From: Candidatus Blastococcus massiliensis AP3
Lineage (GTDB): Bacteria; Actinomycetota; Actinomycetes; Mycobacteriales; Geodermatophilaceae
Direction: 5' to 3'
DNA: 64,000 nucleotides
Assembly: GCF_000582785.1 (NCBI RefSeq)
Contig: NZ_HG931173.1
Coordinates: 1,303,469 to 1,367,468 of the forward strand
Shown here: positions 5,506-46,930 of the stretch, one piece after another
Layout: the number at the start of each line of letters is the position of its first letter
Numbering within the stretch: position 1 is the first letter of the stretch
Position numbers and translations under genes: made by a program
Notes under the pieces: model-generated
The model's input: only the letters and a program-made list of their open reading frames with translations
Database searches by the model: none
What the model was told of the DNA's origin: nothing

Positions 5506-6516
5506 GTGAGCGCGGAGATCCGGTGGGGCGTCGTGGGTCCGGGGCGCATCGCCGAGAGCGTCCTGCCCGACTTCGCGCACGTGCCGCACGCCCGCGTCAC
5601 CGCGGTCGCCTCGCGGTCGCAGGAGCGGGCCGACGCCTTCGCCGCCCGGCACGGGCTGGAGCGGGCGTACGGCAGCTACGCCGAGATCCTCGCCGACCCC
5701 GAGGTCGACGTCCTCTACGTCGCCACCCCGCACGCCCAGCACGCCGCCTTCTCCCTCGCCGCCCTGCGCGCCGGCAAGGCGCTGCTCGTGGAGAAGTCGT
5801 TCACGGCGACGACGGCCGGTGCCGCCGAGGTGATCGACGCCGCCCGGCGGTCCGGCGTCTTCGTCATGGAGGCGATGTGGACGCGCTTCCAGCCGGTGGT
5901 CGTCACGGTGAACGAGCTGATCGCCGACGGCGCGATCGGCGAGGTGCGCTCGGTCCAGGCCGACCTCGGCGTCTCCCGCGAGTACGACCCGGTGGACCGG
6001 CTGTTCGCCCTCGATCTCGGTGGCGGCGCGCTGCTCGACCTCGGCGTCTACGTCGTCTCCTTCGCCCAGATGCTCCTGGGCACCCCGCAGCGCGTCGTCG
6101 CCACCGGCTCCCTGTTCCCCACCGGTGTCGACGCCGAGGCCGCGCTGCTGCTCGGCTACGACGACGGCCGCGCGGCCACGTTGCTCGCGTCGCTGCGCCA
6201 GGCGCTGCCCGGTCAGGCGCGGGTGTTCGGGACCGCCGGCTGGATCGACGTCCTCCCCCGGTTCCACCACCCGGACACGATCGTGCTGCACCGGGCCGGC
6301 GCGGACCCCGAGAGGATCACCCGGCCGCAGACCGGCGTGGGGTACGCGCACGAGCTGATCGAGGTCACCGAGTGCCTGCGCGCCGGCCGGACCGAGAGCG
6401 CGGTCATGCCGCTGGCCGACACCCTCGCCGTGCAGGACGTGCTGGGCCGGGCGGCCGAGCAGCTCGGCGTCCGCCACGCCGAGGGCACCGCGGCCTCCAT
6501 GGCTCCGTTCGGGTGA
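5506..6516 (+). CDS. Gfo/Idh/MocA family NAD(P)-dependent oxidoreductase
   Basis: This 336-residue protein has an N-terminal Rossmann fold (WGVVGPGRIAESV; the usual GxGxxG is GPGRIA) and the family signature EKSFTAT near residue 102, where the canonical motif is EKP. A C-terminal alpha/beta domain contains LGGGALLDLGVY. Members oxidise or reduce sugars, inositols and dihydrodiols; the substrate here cannot be told. The GTG start lies seven bases after TAGCGT (5493-5498), so translation is probably leaderless. The gene stands alone between small unrelated genes. Confidence 0.85.
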   Translation: MSAEIRWGVVGPGRIAESVLPDFAHVPHARVTAVASRSQERADAFAARHGLERAYGSYAEILADPEVDVLYVATPHAQHAAFSLAALRAGKALLVEKSFTATTAGAAEVIDAARRSGVFVMEAMWTRFQPVVVTVNELIADGAIGEVRSVQADLGVSREYDPVDRLFALDLGGGALLDLGVYVVSFAQMLLGTPQRVVATGSLFPTGVDAEAALLLGYDDGRAATLLASLRQALPGQARVFGTAGWIDVLPRFHHPDTIVLHRAGADPERITRPQTGVGYAHELIEVTECLRAGRTESAVMPLADTLAVQDVLGRAAEQLGVRHAEGTAASMAPFG

Positions 6517-6598
6517 CATCGCTGAAGGTGGCCGTCCGTCCTGCCGAAGACAGGGGGAACGCCGCATTCGCAGCGCCCGCCCGGAGGAGCACAGGTTC

Positions 6599-7177
6599 AT
6601 GGCAGTTCTCGAGACACTGGCCGCCGTCGCCGCCAAGATCACCGGTGGGAGCGCCGTCGCCAAGGCAGCTGCCGGTCTGGGGATCGCCGCGGCCAGCGTG
6701 ACCGGCGCGGGAGCAGCGGGCGTGCTGCCCGCCCCGGTGCAGGACACCGTGGCCGGCGCCGTCGAGACGGTGACGCCCTTCGAGCTGCCCGCGTCGGACG
6801 ACACGACGCCCGCGGACGACGTGGTCGAGGTCGAGGTGCCGGTCGTCGAGGAACTGCCCGGGGACGACGCCCCGGAGGGCGCTCCCGAGGACGGCACCGC
6901 GGACGACGTGACCGACGCCGGTGCCGCGCACGGCCTGGAGAACGCTCTCCAGCACGCGAACGAGAACGCGCACGCCACGCTGCAGCGGAACCTGGAGCGG
7001 CACGAGGCGCACGAGGCCGAGAAGGCCACCCGCGAAGCAGCGCGGGCGCAGGAACATGCCGCTCGCGAGGCCCAGCGGGGCTCACGGACGGGAGGCGGAG
7101 CGGCGGCCGAGGGGCCGGCCGCCACCTCCGAGCAACCCGCCGGACGTCAGGGTCGGGGCCCCGGCCGCACGGACTGA
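6599..7177 (+). CDS. Hypothetical Ala-rich protein with acidic and coiled regions
   Basis: The 192 residues have three visible parts. An N-terminal Ala/Gly-rich hydrophobic stretch (about 5-45) could be a membrane or signal segment, although it lacks a clear basic n-region. A very acidic middle (about 60-110) is rich in Asp, Glu and Pro. A charged helical part (about 115-160) is rich in Ala, Glu, His and Arg and probably forms a coiled coil. A disordered basic tail follows. The start is supported by GGAGGAG eleven bases before the ATG. I do not recognise a family. Codon use is like the neighbours, so it is a native gene. Confidence 0.65.
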   Translation: MAVLETLAAVAAKITGGSAVAKAAAGLGIAAASVTGAGAAGVLPAPVQDTVAGAVETVTPFELPASDDTTPADDVVEVEVPVVEELPGDDAPEGAPEDGTADDVTDAGAAHGLENALQHANENAHATLQRNLERHEAHEAEKATREAARAQEHAAREAQRGSRTGGGAAAEGPAATSEQPAGRQGRGPGRTD

Positions 7178-42580: not shown

Positions 42581-43225
42581 GTGACCCTGTCGTTGCTCGA
42601 CTGGCGCCGCCGCACCGGCGCGCTGTACGCCGCCGCCCGCTCGGCGGCCGATCCCGAGCGCGGCTGGCGGATCTGGCGCGACGGCCGGGACGAGCTGTTC
42701 GCCGGCCACCCCGACTCACCCCTGGACGAGGCGGCCCGGGCCGCCTTCAGCGGCCTCCCGTACGCCCCCTACGACCCGGGCCTGCGGTTCGAGGCGCGGC
42801 TGGAGCCGGCCCCCGCGGAGCGGCTGGAGATCCCCACGGCCGCCGACGGGACGGTGCAGTTGGACCGGATCGGGCGGGTGGCGCTCGGCGACGTGGGACG
42901 GATCGACGTGTGGTGGCTGAGCGGCTACGGCGGCGGGGTGTTCCTGCCGCTGCGCGACGGCAGCGCGGGAGGGACGACGTACGGCGGTGGCCGCTACCTG
43001 CTCGACACCGTCAAGGGCGCCGACCTCGGCGGCGACGGCACCCGCCTGGTGGTCGACCTCAACCTCGCCTACCACCCGTCCTGCACCTACGACCCGCGCT
43101 GGTCGTGCCCGCTGGCCCCGGAGGGGAACCGGGTGACGGTGCCGGTGGCCGCCGGGGAGCAGCTGCCCCCCGGCGGCTGGTACCAGCTCACTCCCCTGCC
43201 TGGGTCACCGATCCGTCGGTGGTGA
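42581..43225 (+). CDS. DUF1684 domain-containing protein
   Basis: This 214-residue cytosolic protein matches DUF1684: LLDWRRRTGALYAAAR early, DELFAGHPDSPL, then GGGRYLLDTVKGADLG and LNLAYHPSCTYDPRWSCPLAP. These are the conserved parts of the family. The function is unknown. GTG lies six bases after GACAGT (42569-42574). Its last 38 bases overlap the 3' end of the convergent substrate-binding-protein gene. Confidence 0.85.
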   Translation: MTLSLLDWRRRTGALYAAARSAADPERGWRIWRDGRDELFAGHPDSPLDEAARAAFSGLPYAPYDPGLRFEARLEPAPAERLEIPTAADGTVQLDRIGRVALGDVGRIDVWWLSGYGGGVFLPLRDGSAGGTTYGGGRYLLDTVKGADLGGDGTRLVVDLNLAYHPSCTYDPRWSCPLAPEGNRVTVPVAAGEQLPPGGWYQLTPLPGSPIRRW

Positions 43226-44186
43226 ACACCAGGCCGACCGAGACCTTGCCCTGGCGGATCGCCGACTTGACCAACGGGCCGCCTGCGTCCAGCTCCTCGA
43301 AGCCGGCGAACTGCAGCCCGTAGGTCTCCTCGAGTCCGACCTGGCAGAACGGCCGCGTCGGGCACTCCCCCGGTCCACCGAGGATCAGCGACCCGTCGCC
43401 GCAGGCGTCGGCCAGCTCCGACAGGGTGCTCACGCCGAGCTCGTCGGCGAACTCCTGGGTGACGGCGAAGGCGTTCTGGTTGGCGGCCTCGGACGGCGTG
43501 CCGAACACCAGCCCGGCCTCCTCGGCCAACGGCTGCAGCGCCTCGTAGGTGGCGTCCACGTCGTTGGAGGCGACCTGGTTGTCCTCGTCGCCGTCGAGGT
43601 GCTCGGTGACGGTGGCCAGGTACTCCGGGTGCACCTGGAGCTCGCCGCGCTGCACCGCCGGCAGGTAGAGCTCGCGGTTGCCGGTGGCCTGCGTGGACAC
43701 CTGGAAGCCGGCCGCCTCGAGCACGTCGGCGTAGATGTTGGCGAGGATCTCCGGCTCGGAGAAGTTGCCCGCGCCGATGGCGATCGACCCGCTGCCCTGC
43801 TCCAGGGCGGCGACGTCGATGTTCTCCTCGACCCAGCCGGCCGCGGCCTCCTCGGCGGACTGCCGCTCGACGTCGACGGCGACGTTGAGGTCGCCCAGCT
43901 CGTCGAGGGACAGTGCCTCGGACACCGCGTCCAGCGCGGGCAGCAGCGCCGGGTTGGCCTCGGCGGCGGCCGCGTTGACCGCCGGGAGGAGGTTGTCGGC
44001 GTTCTGGAGCTGCTCGTCGTCCTCGAGGACGACGAGCTGCTCGCCGGCGATCGGGGCGCAGGCCTCGCCGGAGGCCTGGCCTCCGCCGCCGTCCCCACCG
44101 GTGCCGGAGGAGCCGGACTCGCCACAGGCCGCGGTCAGGGCGGCGGCGAGAGCGAGGGGGAGGAGCAGTCGACTGCGCGTACGCAT
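43188..44186 (-). CDS. Osmoprotectant ABC transporter substrate-binding lipoprotein (circularly permuted domain order)
   Basis: This 332-residue lipoprotein has the lipobox TAAC (Cys21). Residues 49-123 (LVVLEDDEQLQNADNLLPAV, then LSLDELGDLNVAVDVER and WVEEN) correspond to the end of canonical ProX/OpuBC proteins. Residues 133-332 (IAIGAGNFSEPEILANIYAD, then RELYLPAVQRGELQVHPEYL and VSVGLVFTTDGSV) correspond to their beginning and middle. The chain therefore starts where the normal protein ends, a circular permutation. Ligands are probably glycine betaine, choline or carnitine. It is the last gene after the two permease genes; a 7-bp hairpin lies between them. Confidence 0.85.
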   Translation of the reverse strand: MRTRSRLLLPLALAAALTAACGESGSSGTGGDGGGGQASGEACAPIAGEQLVVLEDDEQLQNADNLLPAVNAAAAEANPALLPALDAVSEALSLDELGDLNVAVDVERQSAEEAAAGWVEENIDVAALEQGSGSIAIGAGNFSEPEILANIYADVLEAAGFQVSTQATGNRELYLPAVQRGELQVHPEYLATVTEHLDGDEDNQVASNDVDATYEALQPLAEEAGLVFGTPSEAANQNAFAVTQEFADELGVSTLSELADACGDGSLILGGPGECPTRPFCQVGLEETYGLQFAGFEELDAGGPLVKSAIRQGKVSVGLVFTTDGSVTQAGE

Positions 44187-44301: not shown

Positions 44302-45030
44302 CTACAGCGGAATTCCCGACGCCGTGGGCTCCGGGGTCCCGGTGGCCCGCCGGGCGGAGAGGAACGGTAGCCGCTTCTCGCCCGGGGTGAGCGCCCACGA
44401 CGCCACGACCAGCAGCAGCTCGGTCAGCACGGCGAGGGCCGCCACGAGGATGGCCCCCGCCAGCACCACGCCGTAGTCCTGCTGCGCGAAGGCCAGCGTG
44501 ATGATCCGGCCGAGCCCCCCGCCGGCCACGAGCGCCGCCAGGGTCGCGGTCGCGACGACCTGCACCGCCGCCGTGCGGACCCCCGTCATGAGCAGCGGCG
44601 CCGCCAGCGGCAGCTCCGCGCGCAGCACCACCTGGCGGCCGTTCATGCCCATGGCCCGCGCCGCCTCGACGACGTCGCGGTCCACCGAGCGGAACCCGAC
44701 GTAGGTGTTGGTGAGGATCGGCGGGACGGCGAAGACGGCGAGGGCGATGGTGGTCGCCGTCGGGCCGAAGCCGATCGGGGTGACCGCGAAGAGGGTGAGC
44801 AGGGCCAGCGTCGGGACGGCGCGCGAGACGTTCGAGAGGCCGACGGTGAAGCCGCCGCCGCGACCGGTGTGCCCGAGCAGGACGCCGACCGGCAGCGCGA
44901 CGAGCATGGCGGCGAGGACGGCCAGCACCGAGATCCGCAGGTGCTCGCCGAGCAGTTCGAGGATGCCGCCGCGGCGGGTCCAGTTGAACGGGTCGTTGAG
45001 GTAGCGGACGGCCTCGCCGAGCAGGTTCAC
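44302..45030 (-). CDS. Osmoprotectant ABC transporter permease (OpuCD/ProW-like), second
   Basis: This 242-residue protein has six hydrophobic helices and the EAA-loop pattern EAARAMGMNGRQVVLRAELPLAAPLLMTGVRT. It opens with the LGEHLRISVLAVLAAMLVAL segment usual for OpuBB/OpuBD. GTG overlaps the stop of the first permease by four bases. The C-terminal tail is longer than the membrane part needs. It partners with the other permease, the divergent ATPase and the binding protein. Confidence 0.9.
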   Translation of the reverse strand: MNLLGEAVRYLNDPFNWTRRGGILELLGEHLRISVLAVLAAMLVALPVGVLLGHTGRGGGFTVGLSNVSRAVPTLALLTLFAVTPIGFGPTATTIALAVFAVPPILTNTYVGFRSVDRDVVEAARAMGMNGRQVVLRAELPLAAPLLMTGVRTAAVQVVATATLAALVAGGGLGRIITLAFAQQDYGVVLAGAILVAALAVLTELLLVVASWALTPGEKRLPFLSARRATGTPEPTASGIPL

Positions 45031-45716
45031 GCCGTCCGCCGCCGGGTCCAGGGCGTGAGCACGCGCTCGGCGCCGGCCAGCAGGAGGTCGGCCAGGAGCG
45101 CCAGGAGCACGCAGCCCAGGGCGCCGGTGACGATCTCGGCCCGGTAGAAGTTGGCGTTGAAGCCGCCGGTGATCAGCTGGCCGAGCCCGCCGTGCCCGAC
45201 GATGACCCCGACCGTGGTGAGCGCGACGGTGGTGACCGTGGCGACGCGGATGCCGGCCATGAACGCCGGCAGCGCGAGGGGCAGGTCCACCTGCCAGAAC
45301 AACCGGACCGGGCCGTAGCCCATCCCGCGCGCGGCCTCCCGGACGTCGTCCGGGACGCCCTGGAGGCCGGCGAGGAAGTTCCGCACCAGGATCACCAGGG
45401 AGTAGAGCACCAGCCCGACGAGCACGGTCGTCGCGGTCAGCCCGGTGACCGGCGCGACGAAGGCGAACATGGCCAGCGACGGGATCGTGTAGATCAGCGT
45501 GGACAGGCCGAGGACGGGCCCGGCCAGGAAGCGGCTGCGGCGGGCCAGCACCGCCATCGGCAGCGCGAGGAGCGTTCCGAGGACGACGGCACCGATCGTG
45601 AGCCTGACGTGCTCGCCGAGGTACCCCATGATGGAGTCCCAGTTGTCCGTCACGTAGGACGGGTCGAACCAGGGGTTCGGCGCCTCCTCCACCGCGAGCA
45701 CCGCCGCGCTCACCAC
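45027..45716 (-). CDS. Osmoprotectant ABC transporter permease (OpuCB-like), first
   Basis: This 229-residue membrane protein contains MGYLGEHVRLTIGAVVLGTL and the EAA loop REAARGMGYGPVRLFWQVDLPLALPAFMAGIRV, and ends with a basic tail. The start is GTG at 45716 (or GTG one codon on). It is transcribed away from the ATPase gene, with only 26 bases between the start codons, so the two arms must share a very compact promoter region. Confidence 0.9.
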   Translation of the reverse strand: MVSAAVLAVEEAPNPWFDPSYVTDNWDSIMGYLGEHVRLTIGAVVLGTLLALPMAVLARRSRFLAGPVLGLSTLIYTIPSLAMFAFVAPVTGLTATTVLVGLVLYSLVILVRNFLAGLQGVPDDVREAARGMGYGPVRLFWQVDLPLALPAFMAGIRVATVTTVALTTVGVIVGHGGLGQLITGGFNANFYRAEIVTGALGCVLLALLADLLLAGAERVLTPWTRRRTA

Positions 45717-45742: not shown

Positions 45743-46930
45743 GTGGACGCTACTGCTCCCCCCTCCTCCCCCGCAGCTCACGGGTCCGCCGAGGAGATCC
45801 GGCTCGAGGGCGTGAGCAAGGTGTACGCCGACGGGACCGTGGGGGTCGCCGAACTCGACCTCACCTTCGCCGCCGGCGAGCTCACCGTCCTCGTCGGCCC
45901 CTCGGGGTGCGGCAAGACGACGACGATGAAGATGATCAACCGGATCATCGAGCCGACGACCGGGCGGATCCTGCTGGGGGGCGAGGACGTCACCGGCGTC
46001 GACCCCGTGCGGCTGCGTCGCCGCATCGGCTACGTCATCCAGAACGTCGGGCTCTTCCCGCACCAGACCGTCCGGGCCAACGTGGGCACGGTGCCGCGGC
46101 TGCTCGGCTGGGACCGGGCGCGCACCCGTGCGCGGGTGGACGAGCTGCTCGAGCTGATCGGCCTGGACCCCGCGGTGCACGCCGACCGCTATCCGCACCA
46201 GCTCTCCGGGGGGCAGCGCCAGCGGGCCGGCGTCGCCCGGGCGCTGGCCGCGGACCCGCCGGTGCTCCTCATGGACGAGCCGTTCTCCGCCGTCGACCCG
46301 GTGGTGCGCGAGCGGCTGCAGGCGGAGTTCCTGCGCCTCCAGCAGGCGGTCCGCAAGACGATCGTCTTCGTCACCCACGACATCGAGGAGGCCGTGCGGC
46401 TCGGCGACCGGATCGCGGTGATGAGCACCGGCGGCCGGGTCGAGCAGTTCGCGACGCCGGCCGACCTGCTGGGCCGCCCGGCCACCGAGTTCGTCGCGGA
46501 CTTCGTGGGGGCCGACCGCGGGCTCAAGCGACTCGCGGTCACCGAGATCGACACCGTCGACCTCGAGCAGCCACCGGTGGTGCACGTCGACGACGGCCTG
46601 GCCGACGCCCGCAGCGCGCTGGAGCGGGTGGGTGCCCGCTGGGCCGTCGTCCTCGACGACCGGGAGCGCCTGCACGGCTGGCTGTCGGCCGAGCGGGCCT
46701 CGGGCGCCGGCACCGTGGGCACCGCGGCCCGCCGGATGGACGCCTGGGTGCCCGCGGACGCCTCGCTGAAGACCGCCTTCGCCACGATGCTGCAGCACGA
46801 GGCCGGGTGGGTGGCGGTGCTCGACGGCGACCGGTTCCTCGGCGTCCTCACCCCCGAGTCGCTGCACGCGGCGCTGCGCCGCTCGGTCGAGGGCACCGTC
46901 CCGGAGACGGCAGGGGCTACCCAGGCCTGA
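45743..46930 (+). CDS. Osmoprotectant ABC transporter ATP-binding protein with CBS domains (OpuCA/ProV-like)
   Basis: This 395-residue protein has Walker A GPSGCGKT (52-59), the Q-loop VIQNVGLFPH, the signature LSGGQ (154-158), Walker B VLLMDEP, and the H-loop FVTHDIEEA. The tail from about 265 to 380 has two CBS-like repeats (WAVVLDDRERLHGWL and WVAVLDGDRFLGVL), which sense ionic strength or nucleotides in OpuA-type importers. AGGAAGG precedes the GTG. It is divergent from the permease genes. A hairpin terminator begins at its last codon. Confidence 0.93.
   Translation: MDATAPPSSPAAHGSAEEIRLEGVSKVYADGTVGVAELDLTFAAGELTVLVGPSGCGKTTTMKMINRIIEPTTGRILLGGEDVTGVDPVRLRRRIGYVIQNVGLFPHQTVRANVGTVPRLLGWDRARTRARVDELLELIGLDPAVHADRYPHQLSGGQRQRAGVARALAADPPVLLMDEPFSAVDPVVRERLQAEFLRLQQAVRKTIVFVTHDIEEAVRLGDRIAVMSTGGRVEQFATPADLLGRPATEFVADFVGADRGLKRLAVTEIDTVDLEQPPVVHVDDGLADARSALERVGARWAVVLDDRERLHGWLSAERASGAGTVGTAARRMDAWVPADASLKTAFATMLQHEAGWVAVLDGDRFLGVLTPESLHAALRRSVEGTVPETAGATQA

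Follow-up and report, generated by a model that had tools for sequence, protein, structure and literature searches.

Substrate-binding proteins of the OpuBC/ProX type (PF04069), among them AfProX (1sw1), OpuBC (3r6u), EgtUC (7txk) and Lmo1422 (4z7e), belong to ABC importer operons with two permeases and a CBS-domain ATPase. In this fold, lobe 1 contains the first strand together with the C-terminal segment, and lobe 2 the middle of the chain. TpMglB-2 (Tp0684), a tethered glucose-binding lipoprotein compared with E. coli MglB at 26% identity, is described as a circularly permuted “Cluster Bc” protein conserved in its group, and the available text raises anchoring as a possible reason for the permutation (PMC4990184). 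CPSARST relates glycine-betaine-binding proteins to each other by circular permutation at less than 24% identity, in a permutation family that also takes in molybdate-binding proteins and CysB (PMC2395249).

We analyzed a binding-protein gene of the soil actinobacterium Candidatus Blastococcus massiliensis AP3, located in a DNA stretch of 64,000 nucleotides (the window). Its product shares the family profile of the canonical OpuBC/ProX-type proteins, which are also its best PDB matches by sequence and fold, and an importer operon of the same composition, but differs from them in having its segments swapped, N238 and D64 in place of Y111 and Y214 of AfProX, and two extra cysteines. Like TpMglB-2, it is a natural permutation of a tethered ABC binding protein; unlike the window protein, TpMglB-2 as described in the available text has a Type I/Cluster B fold, another cut and a sugar ligand. 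The “Cluster Bc” fold is not that of the window protein, for which OpuAC is the only Pfam family at E≤0.001 and the PDB matches are of the ProX/OpuBC types.

Order of the parts in the window protein

The ORF at 43188-44186 on the minus strand starts with ATG and encodes 332 aa. Read in order, the protein consists of a lipobox (..LTAAC21), a linker, CAPIAGEQLVVLEDDEQLQNADNLLPAV.., LDELGDLNVAVDVER..WVEEN, a GSG linker, IAIGAGNFSEPEILANIYA.. and the end VSVGLVFTTDGSVTQAGE; its mature part begins with a Gly/Ser-rich linker followed by CAPIAGEQLVVLEDD, and its C-terminal end is FTTDGSVTQAGE. The lipobox, read by eye, and the neighboring permease and ATPase genes are those of an ABC-importer binding lipoprotein, and C21 is present in all 53 distinct permuted proteins that we collected. 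We call this order type 1, and a second permutation described below type 2. The features are as follows.

43188..44186, minus strand: circularly permuted OpuAC/OpuBC/ProX-type substrate-binding lipoprotein (type 1 permutant), 332 aa, from profile and homologue searches
44124..44186, minus strand: signal peptide, aa 1-21, whose lipobox (read by eye) ends at C21
44061..44123, minus strand: Gly/Ser-rich tether linker, aa 22-42, a low-confidence part of the model
44058..44060, minus strand: C43, one of two type-1-specific cysteines, where the new N-terminus first becomes well predicted
43818..44045, minus strand: segment B (aa 48-123), a homologue of the canonical C-terminal stretch of ~75 residues (PF04069 187-257)
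43788..43817, minus strand: junction linker, aa 124-133 (..ALEQGSG..), joining both native ends
43203..43787, minus strand: segment A (aa 134-328), which corresponds by homology to the canonical N-terminal stretch of ~195 residues (PF04069 2-184)
43401..43403, minus strand: C262, the second type-1-specific cysteine, in the loop where type 2 permutants are cut
43344..43364, minus strand: C275..C281 of the CPxRxFC motif
43188..43202, minus strand: last four residues of the new C-terminal tail and the stop, from the ORF translation
44302..45030, minus strand: partner permease (BPD_transp_1), profile match and conserved order
45027..45716, minus strand: partner permease (BPD_transp_1), profile match and conserved order
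45743..46930, plus strand: divergent CBS-domain ATPase of ProV/OpuBA-like type; TIGR01186 scores 324.8 bits, slightly short of the cut-off of 326.6

The 3′ end of the binding-protein gene (43188-43225) overlaps a convergent DUF1684 ORF (42581-43225) by 38 bases; the corresponding matches in L036 do not overlap.

Profile searches confirmed the 332-aa product as a circular permutant of an OpuAC/OpuBC/ProX-type binding protein. PF04069 (OpuAC) matches it with 142.5 bits (cut-off 21.2), with no single collinear match and instead two stretches in swapped order, the best of which aligns aa 134-328 with profile positions 2-184. In a six-frame search of its own genome, each piece is found alone and again in swapped order, profile 2-184 with 98.2 bits and profile 187-257 with 44.1 bits (E 3.8e-11, at 1347292-1347507, converting to aa 50-121). 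A phmmer search of the PDB gave the same arrangement for EgtUC, residues 15-195 of which align with aa 142-326 and residues 200-273 with aa 50-123, the second piece being weak alone. The OsmF equivalog NF049931 also matches in two stretches, with 80.1 bits, below its cut-off of 400. As a positive control, the canonical-order relative L092 matched AfProX (1sw1) in one collinear stretch, 2-268 on 8-274.

We also built a doubled profile (length 530) by repeating the sequence of each of three canonical proteins in tandem; a canonical protein should match it within one copy, a permutant across the middle. In its own genome, the window protein matches this profile once, across the junction (187-454 of 530, 206.8 bits), and a normal-order paralogue matches 266-523. 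A match at E≤1e-55 was found in 142 of 296 class-sample genomes; among the best 150 rows, 132 lie within one copy, i.e., are in canonical order, 15 cross the middle with the window protein's cut (186-191 to 452-459), and 3 cross it with the type 2 cut (121-123 to 390-393). The counts from the doubled profile, the family (96) and class (394) genomes and Foldseek, and those of type 2 in the family, were made by eye on printed rows.

These results bear out the first-pass annotation of this DNA in its two central claims, that the segment order is swapped and that the last ~75 canonical residues stand at the N-terminus, and the domain search returned neither a collinear match nor an unrelated N-terminal domain. 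The FTTDG junction that it had placed at the C-terminus is indeed found there, and the chain runs on past the SV of FTTDGSVT for four more residues than that annotation implied.

Distribution, neighbors and descent

A survey of homologues with the window protein as query found the type 1 order at full length, as a collinear match, in 79 of the 96 family genomes (among the matches listed). Two further genomes (G026 and G033) have fragments crossing the junction, aa 12-164 and 20-175. Eight genomes (G005, G008, G016, G018, G024, G031, G044 and G080) carry neither type 1 nor type 2 among the matches listed; five of them are less than 90% complete, and G005 has a 63%-identical fragment covering aa 253-329, from which the order is not readable. 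Matches covering both segments occur in 17 of 394 genomes of the class sample, from six family codes (among the matches listed), and the named carriers of type 1 are Blastococcus, Geodermatophilus, Cellulomonas, a Demequina MAG and an Actinomycetales MAG. At E≤1e-60, type 1 is found in 2 of the 396 genomes of the phylum sample (G000 and G190), with no sign of it outside the class. Plasmids yielded no full-length relative, none of the 368 matching records covering 80% of the query. Five g4 genomes (G022, G029, G040, G049 and G054; among the matches listed) have two adjacent type 1 genes, 54-57% identical to the window protein, and in G022 both (L086:4857-5846 and 6047-7030) lie 3′ of the permeases. 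G044, a genome of the window's genus without type 1, has a canonical-order protein near type 2 (L103), with 49-60% identity in two pieces.

Eight pairs of permuted genes were chosen for comparing the synonymous (dS) and nonsynonymous (dN) rates. In segment A, dS > dN holds in all eight pairs; in segment B it holds in seven, dS there being 0 in the eighth (L031/L033). As judged from these rates, purifying selection is shown to act on both segments in the gene pairs tested. Some pairs have dN > dS in the linker and the tail, both of which are short and noisy.

Relatives in normal order are found in two Nanopelagicales MAGs (L045 and L046) and two Frankineae MAGs (L048 and L049). A common layout, consisting of a divergent ATPase, two permeases and the binding protein, is shared by permuted loci (L036-L044, L047, L086 and L088) and canonical ones (L045, L046 and L048), and in this layout the permuted gene fills the slot of the unpermuted gene. 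The canonical L049 has its ATPase on the other side, and in the permuted L087, which holds the divergent protein L065, the permeases are divergent from the ATPase and binding protein. The canonical sisters (L045/L046, L048/L049 and, from class genomes, L066-L078) are 39-53% identical to the window protein over segment A, with L045, from the common layout, at 51%, compared with 33% for the paralogue L002. They also share both CPxRxFC cysteines with type 1 (18/18 rows), but have the normal order and no cysteine at position 262 (18/18 rows).

Phylogenetic analysis used nonidentical ORFs of 280-400 aa that contain both segments, 78 rows in all: 53 permuted (re-rotated to canonical order), 18 canonical and 7 type 2. 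L001 (segment A only) and antisense or short matches were dropped, and L045 is truncated by the end of its contig; the relatives' start codons were chosen by script, and some may be off. All 53 permuted rows fall on one side of one branch in the full tree, with modest support: 99/94 for 52 of them and 93/58 once the long-branched L065 is included, in a bootstrap that had not settled. A tree of segment A, made from 22 of the 53 permuted rows plus the 18 canonical ones and excluding type 2, requires two changes and gives one origin in 18% of bootstrap trees, so that a single origin of type 1 is not secure. It is nevertheless likely, if not proven, that type 1 arose once, a reading helped by the shared cut and cysteines. 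The junction linker of many permuted proteins (e.g., SGGSGKVVVGAANFSE in L060) resembles the N-terminus of some canonical sisters (GGQTGSGKVVVGAAGFSE in L073), and because of this resemblance we propose that type 1 arose in place, probably by duplication and fusion of a canonical gene with loss of the second signal peptide.

Several other readings of the gene can be weighed against these data. That type 1 arose more than once, with the divergent L065 (G465) as the likeliest independent event, is improbable but deserves consideration: the two changes in the segment-A tree, the long branch of L065 and its different operon layout speak for it, and the same cut, both extra cysteines and the GGSG junction in L065, together with starred branches that force one change only, speak against it. 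Far less credible is the notion of an unrelated domain at the N-terminus (75 residues), with segment A as the sole remnant of a binding protein. The matches of single PDB sequences to the second piece are individually weak (i-Evalue 0.15-0.27), as this would require, but the profile match to the same piece, the single doubled-profile match across the junction and the 33-51% identity of segment B to the C-terminal segment in 18/18 canonical rows already refute it by sequence, and we rejected it. Equally little can be said for an assembly chimera or a decaying pseudogene, given an order common to 79/96 family genomes (among the matches listed) and to 53 distinct proteins, dS > dN in segment A in every pair, and a GC3 of 0.97-1.0 in both segments and the junction; we rejected both on conservation, selection and GC3.

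Predicted fold, cysteine pair and ligand pocket

An AlphaFold model of the window protein (11 sequences) has pLDDT 78.5 and pTM 0.72; residues 1-39 fall below pLDDT 50, and the chain is well predicted from about residue 41, with pLDDT 88 for the block 41-50. Foldseek matched the model to 41 PDB entries at E≤0.001 (among the matches listed), namely OpuBC, ProX, OpuAC, EgtUC, Lmo1422, Brucella relatives and derived sensors. Thirty-five of these align over 200-229 columns and six over fewer, with a best target-normalized TM of 0.53, and among the matches listed no solved chain aligns end to end with the model. Going by the model, such short alignments are what a sequential alignment to a permutant should give. 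The model of the canonical sister L046 (4 sequences) aligns over 290-317 columns to 43 unfused chains among 50 listed, at rmsd 9.4-13.6 Å and target TM 0.38-0.48, no higher than the permutant's; as this model is poor (pLDDT 54.9), the control supports the column count only, and L046 was dropped for structural comparison.

The best explanation of the locus as a whole, to which we give a probability of about 0.85, is that of a permuted importer lipoprotein that arose in place, with lobes that still close, a tether that has moved and a disulfide between C43 and C262. On this reading, the gene encodes the membrane-tethered substrate-binding lipoprotein, of permuted fold, of an OpuB/ProU-type ABC importer. 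The short GSG linker connects the native ends, and the new ends were created at the chain's exit from the second lobe, after FTTDG and before LVVLEDD. The two lobes would still assemble and close on ligand, and the lipid tether would enter at the lobe-2/hinge side rather than at the first strand of lobe 1.

Since domain swapping can be favored by a short junction linker, we also considered a dimer of this kind, with lobe 1 of one molecule completed by segment B from a second. The AlphaFold monomer is moderately confident (pTM 0.72) and the archetypal family members are monomers, dimeric exceptions also being reported in the available text (PMC10087775), which together make swapping a rather unlikely arrangement. 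It is harder still to believe that the order of the window protein is the known permuted order separating B. subtilis OpuAC, E. coli ProX and A. fulgidus ProX, a possibility suggested by the CPSARST report of circular permutation among glycine-betaine-binding proteins (PMC2395249, available text). None of the 41 PDB matches aligns end to end and the best target TM stays at 0.53; the OpuAC structure 2b4l reaches a target TM of 0.44 over 220 columns at 8.1 Å, and E. coli ProX is absent among the 50 listed. Moreover, the closest canonical rows have the order A-B, and the order of L092 is that of AfProX.

In the preferred reading of a rewired monomer, two cysteines would take on a particular role. 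Cysteines at 21, 43, 262, 275 and 281 (window numbering) are present in 53/53 permuted proteins. In the canonical rows, position 262 is occupied by A, S, T or N or falls in a gap, and none of the 18 has C, in counts from one MAFFT alignment in which 5/18 canonical rows are gapped there and the raw cysteine list shows none nearby. C43 has no canonical counterpart, since its position lies just before the new start. We infer that a C43-C262 disulfide pins the new N-terminus to lobe 2, replacing the severed backbone. Four of the 18 canonical proteins (L071, L073, L074 and L078) have another cysteine pair, with one cysteine in the N-terminal linker and one in ..CGY... We considered their linker cysteine as an ancestor of the type 1 pair and rejected it on account of the second cysteine, which lies elsewhere; this pair looks like a separate linker staple, perhaps.

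Operon and family say that the gene product would serve ABC import of a small molecule. The cage residues reported for AfProX, Y63, Y111, Y190 and Y214 (PMC10087775, available text), correspond to Y189, N238, F321 and D64 when read through the L092 alignment, and these are kept in 53, 53, 46 and 52 of the 53 permuted proteins, respectively. With N and D at two of its four positions, the aromatic trimethylammonium cage of betaine/choline ProX/OpuBC proteins, as described there, is not conserved. The substrate is for this reason probably other than plain betaine, and the label “osmoprotectant-binding” used in the first-pass annotation draws no support from these residues. Because the canonical rows also have N at the N238 position (17/18) and D or E at the D64 position (18/18), the cage change seems to precede the permutation.

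A second permutation and what the family means

Type 2 belongs to the same family, has a lipoprotein signal and is likewise permuted, but at another cut and in a separate clade (100/100 in the 78-row tree). Its order is a lipobox (ACGESGSS), LVLGGPPEF.. to the native C-terminus, and then the native N-terminal part up to SIADLAEQP, which puts the cut within lobe 2, ahead of LVLGGPPEF, in the loop where type 1 has C262. The type 2 N-terminus would open in this loop, before LVLGG, to which the N-terminus of type 1 would be stapled by C43-C262. Seven of the 96 family genomes (L079-L085, genus code g7) carry type 2 in place of type 1, within an ABC operon of a different layout with all genes on one strand, and these seven proteins, unlike type 1, are without CPxRxFC and without the second cysteine. 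Full-length type 2 also occurs in 3 of 296 class-sample genomes (L104-L106), from three other family codes. Among the matches listed, ten of the 17 g7 genomes have type 1 only, seven have type 2 only and none has both; this mutual exclusion may reflect one clade and is not independent evidence of replacement.

We offer only as a tentative idea, and one that we would sooner doubt than accept, that the family has been permuted at least twice in Actinobacteria, with both cuts in lobe 2 shifting the lipid tether from lobe 1 to lobe 2 and type 1 stapled by C43-C262. Permuted binding proteins were already known as a kind, from TpMglB-2 (PMC4990184) and CPSARST (PMC2395249), so that the first-pass statement that no description was known holds for this particular cut and not for the kind. 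In the literature listings that we searched, nothing describes this cut, type 2 or the cysteine pair, which to that extent appear new. The text of a paper on lactococcal OpuAC has no mention of permutation or swapping (PMC2861598), and a text search of PMC12667903 for permutation gave one irrelevant passage.

The proteins between which natural circular permutations are inferred have often diverged too far to reveal how or why the rearrangement occurred, and the CPSARST relation, as given in the available text, is a structural one between distant proteins. In the present case, identity between permuted and unpermuted forms is as high as 53% over segment A, and a second permutation occurs in the same bacterial family. 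Three questions are therefore testable: by what route a gene with a signal peptide is permuted, what makes up for a cut hinge strand, and whether the anchor site matters for ABC import. Annotation that expects one collinear domain match misreads these proteins. A twice-permuted family is a natural experiment in the tolerance of proteins to rewiring, and if the proposed shift of the tether in both types is true, selection in these importers would act on where the membrane anchor attaches, and a rewired chain would be a way to change the attachment.
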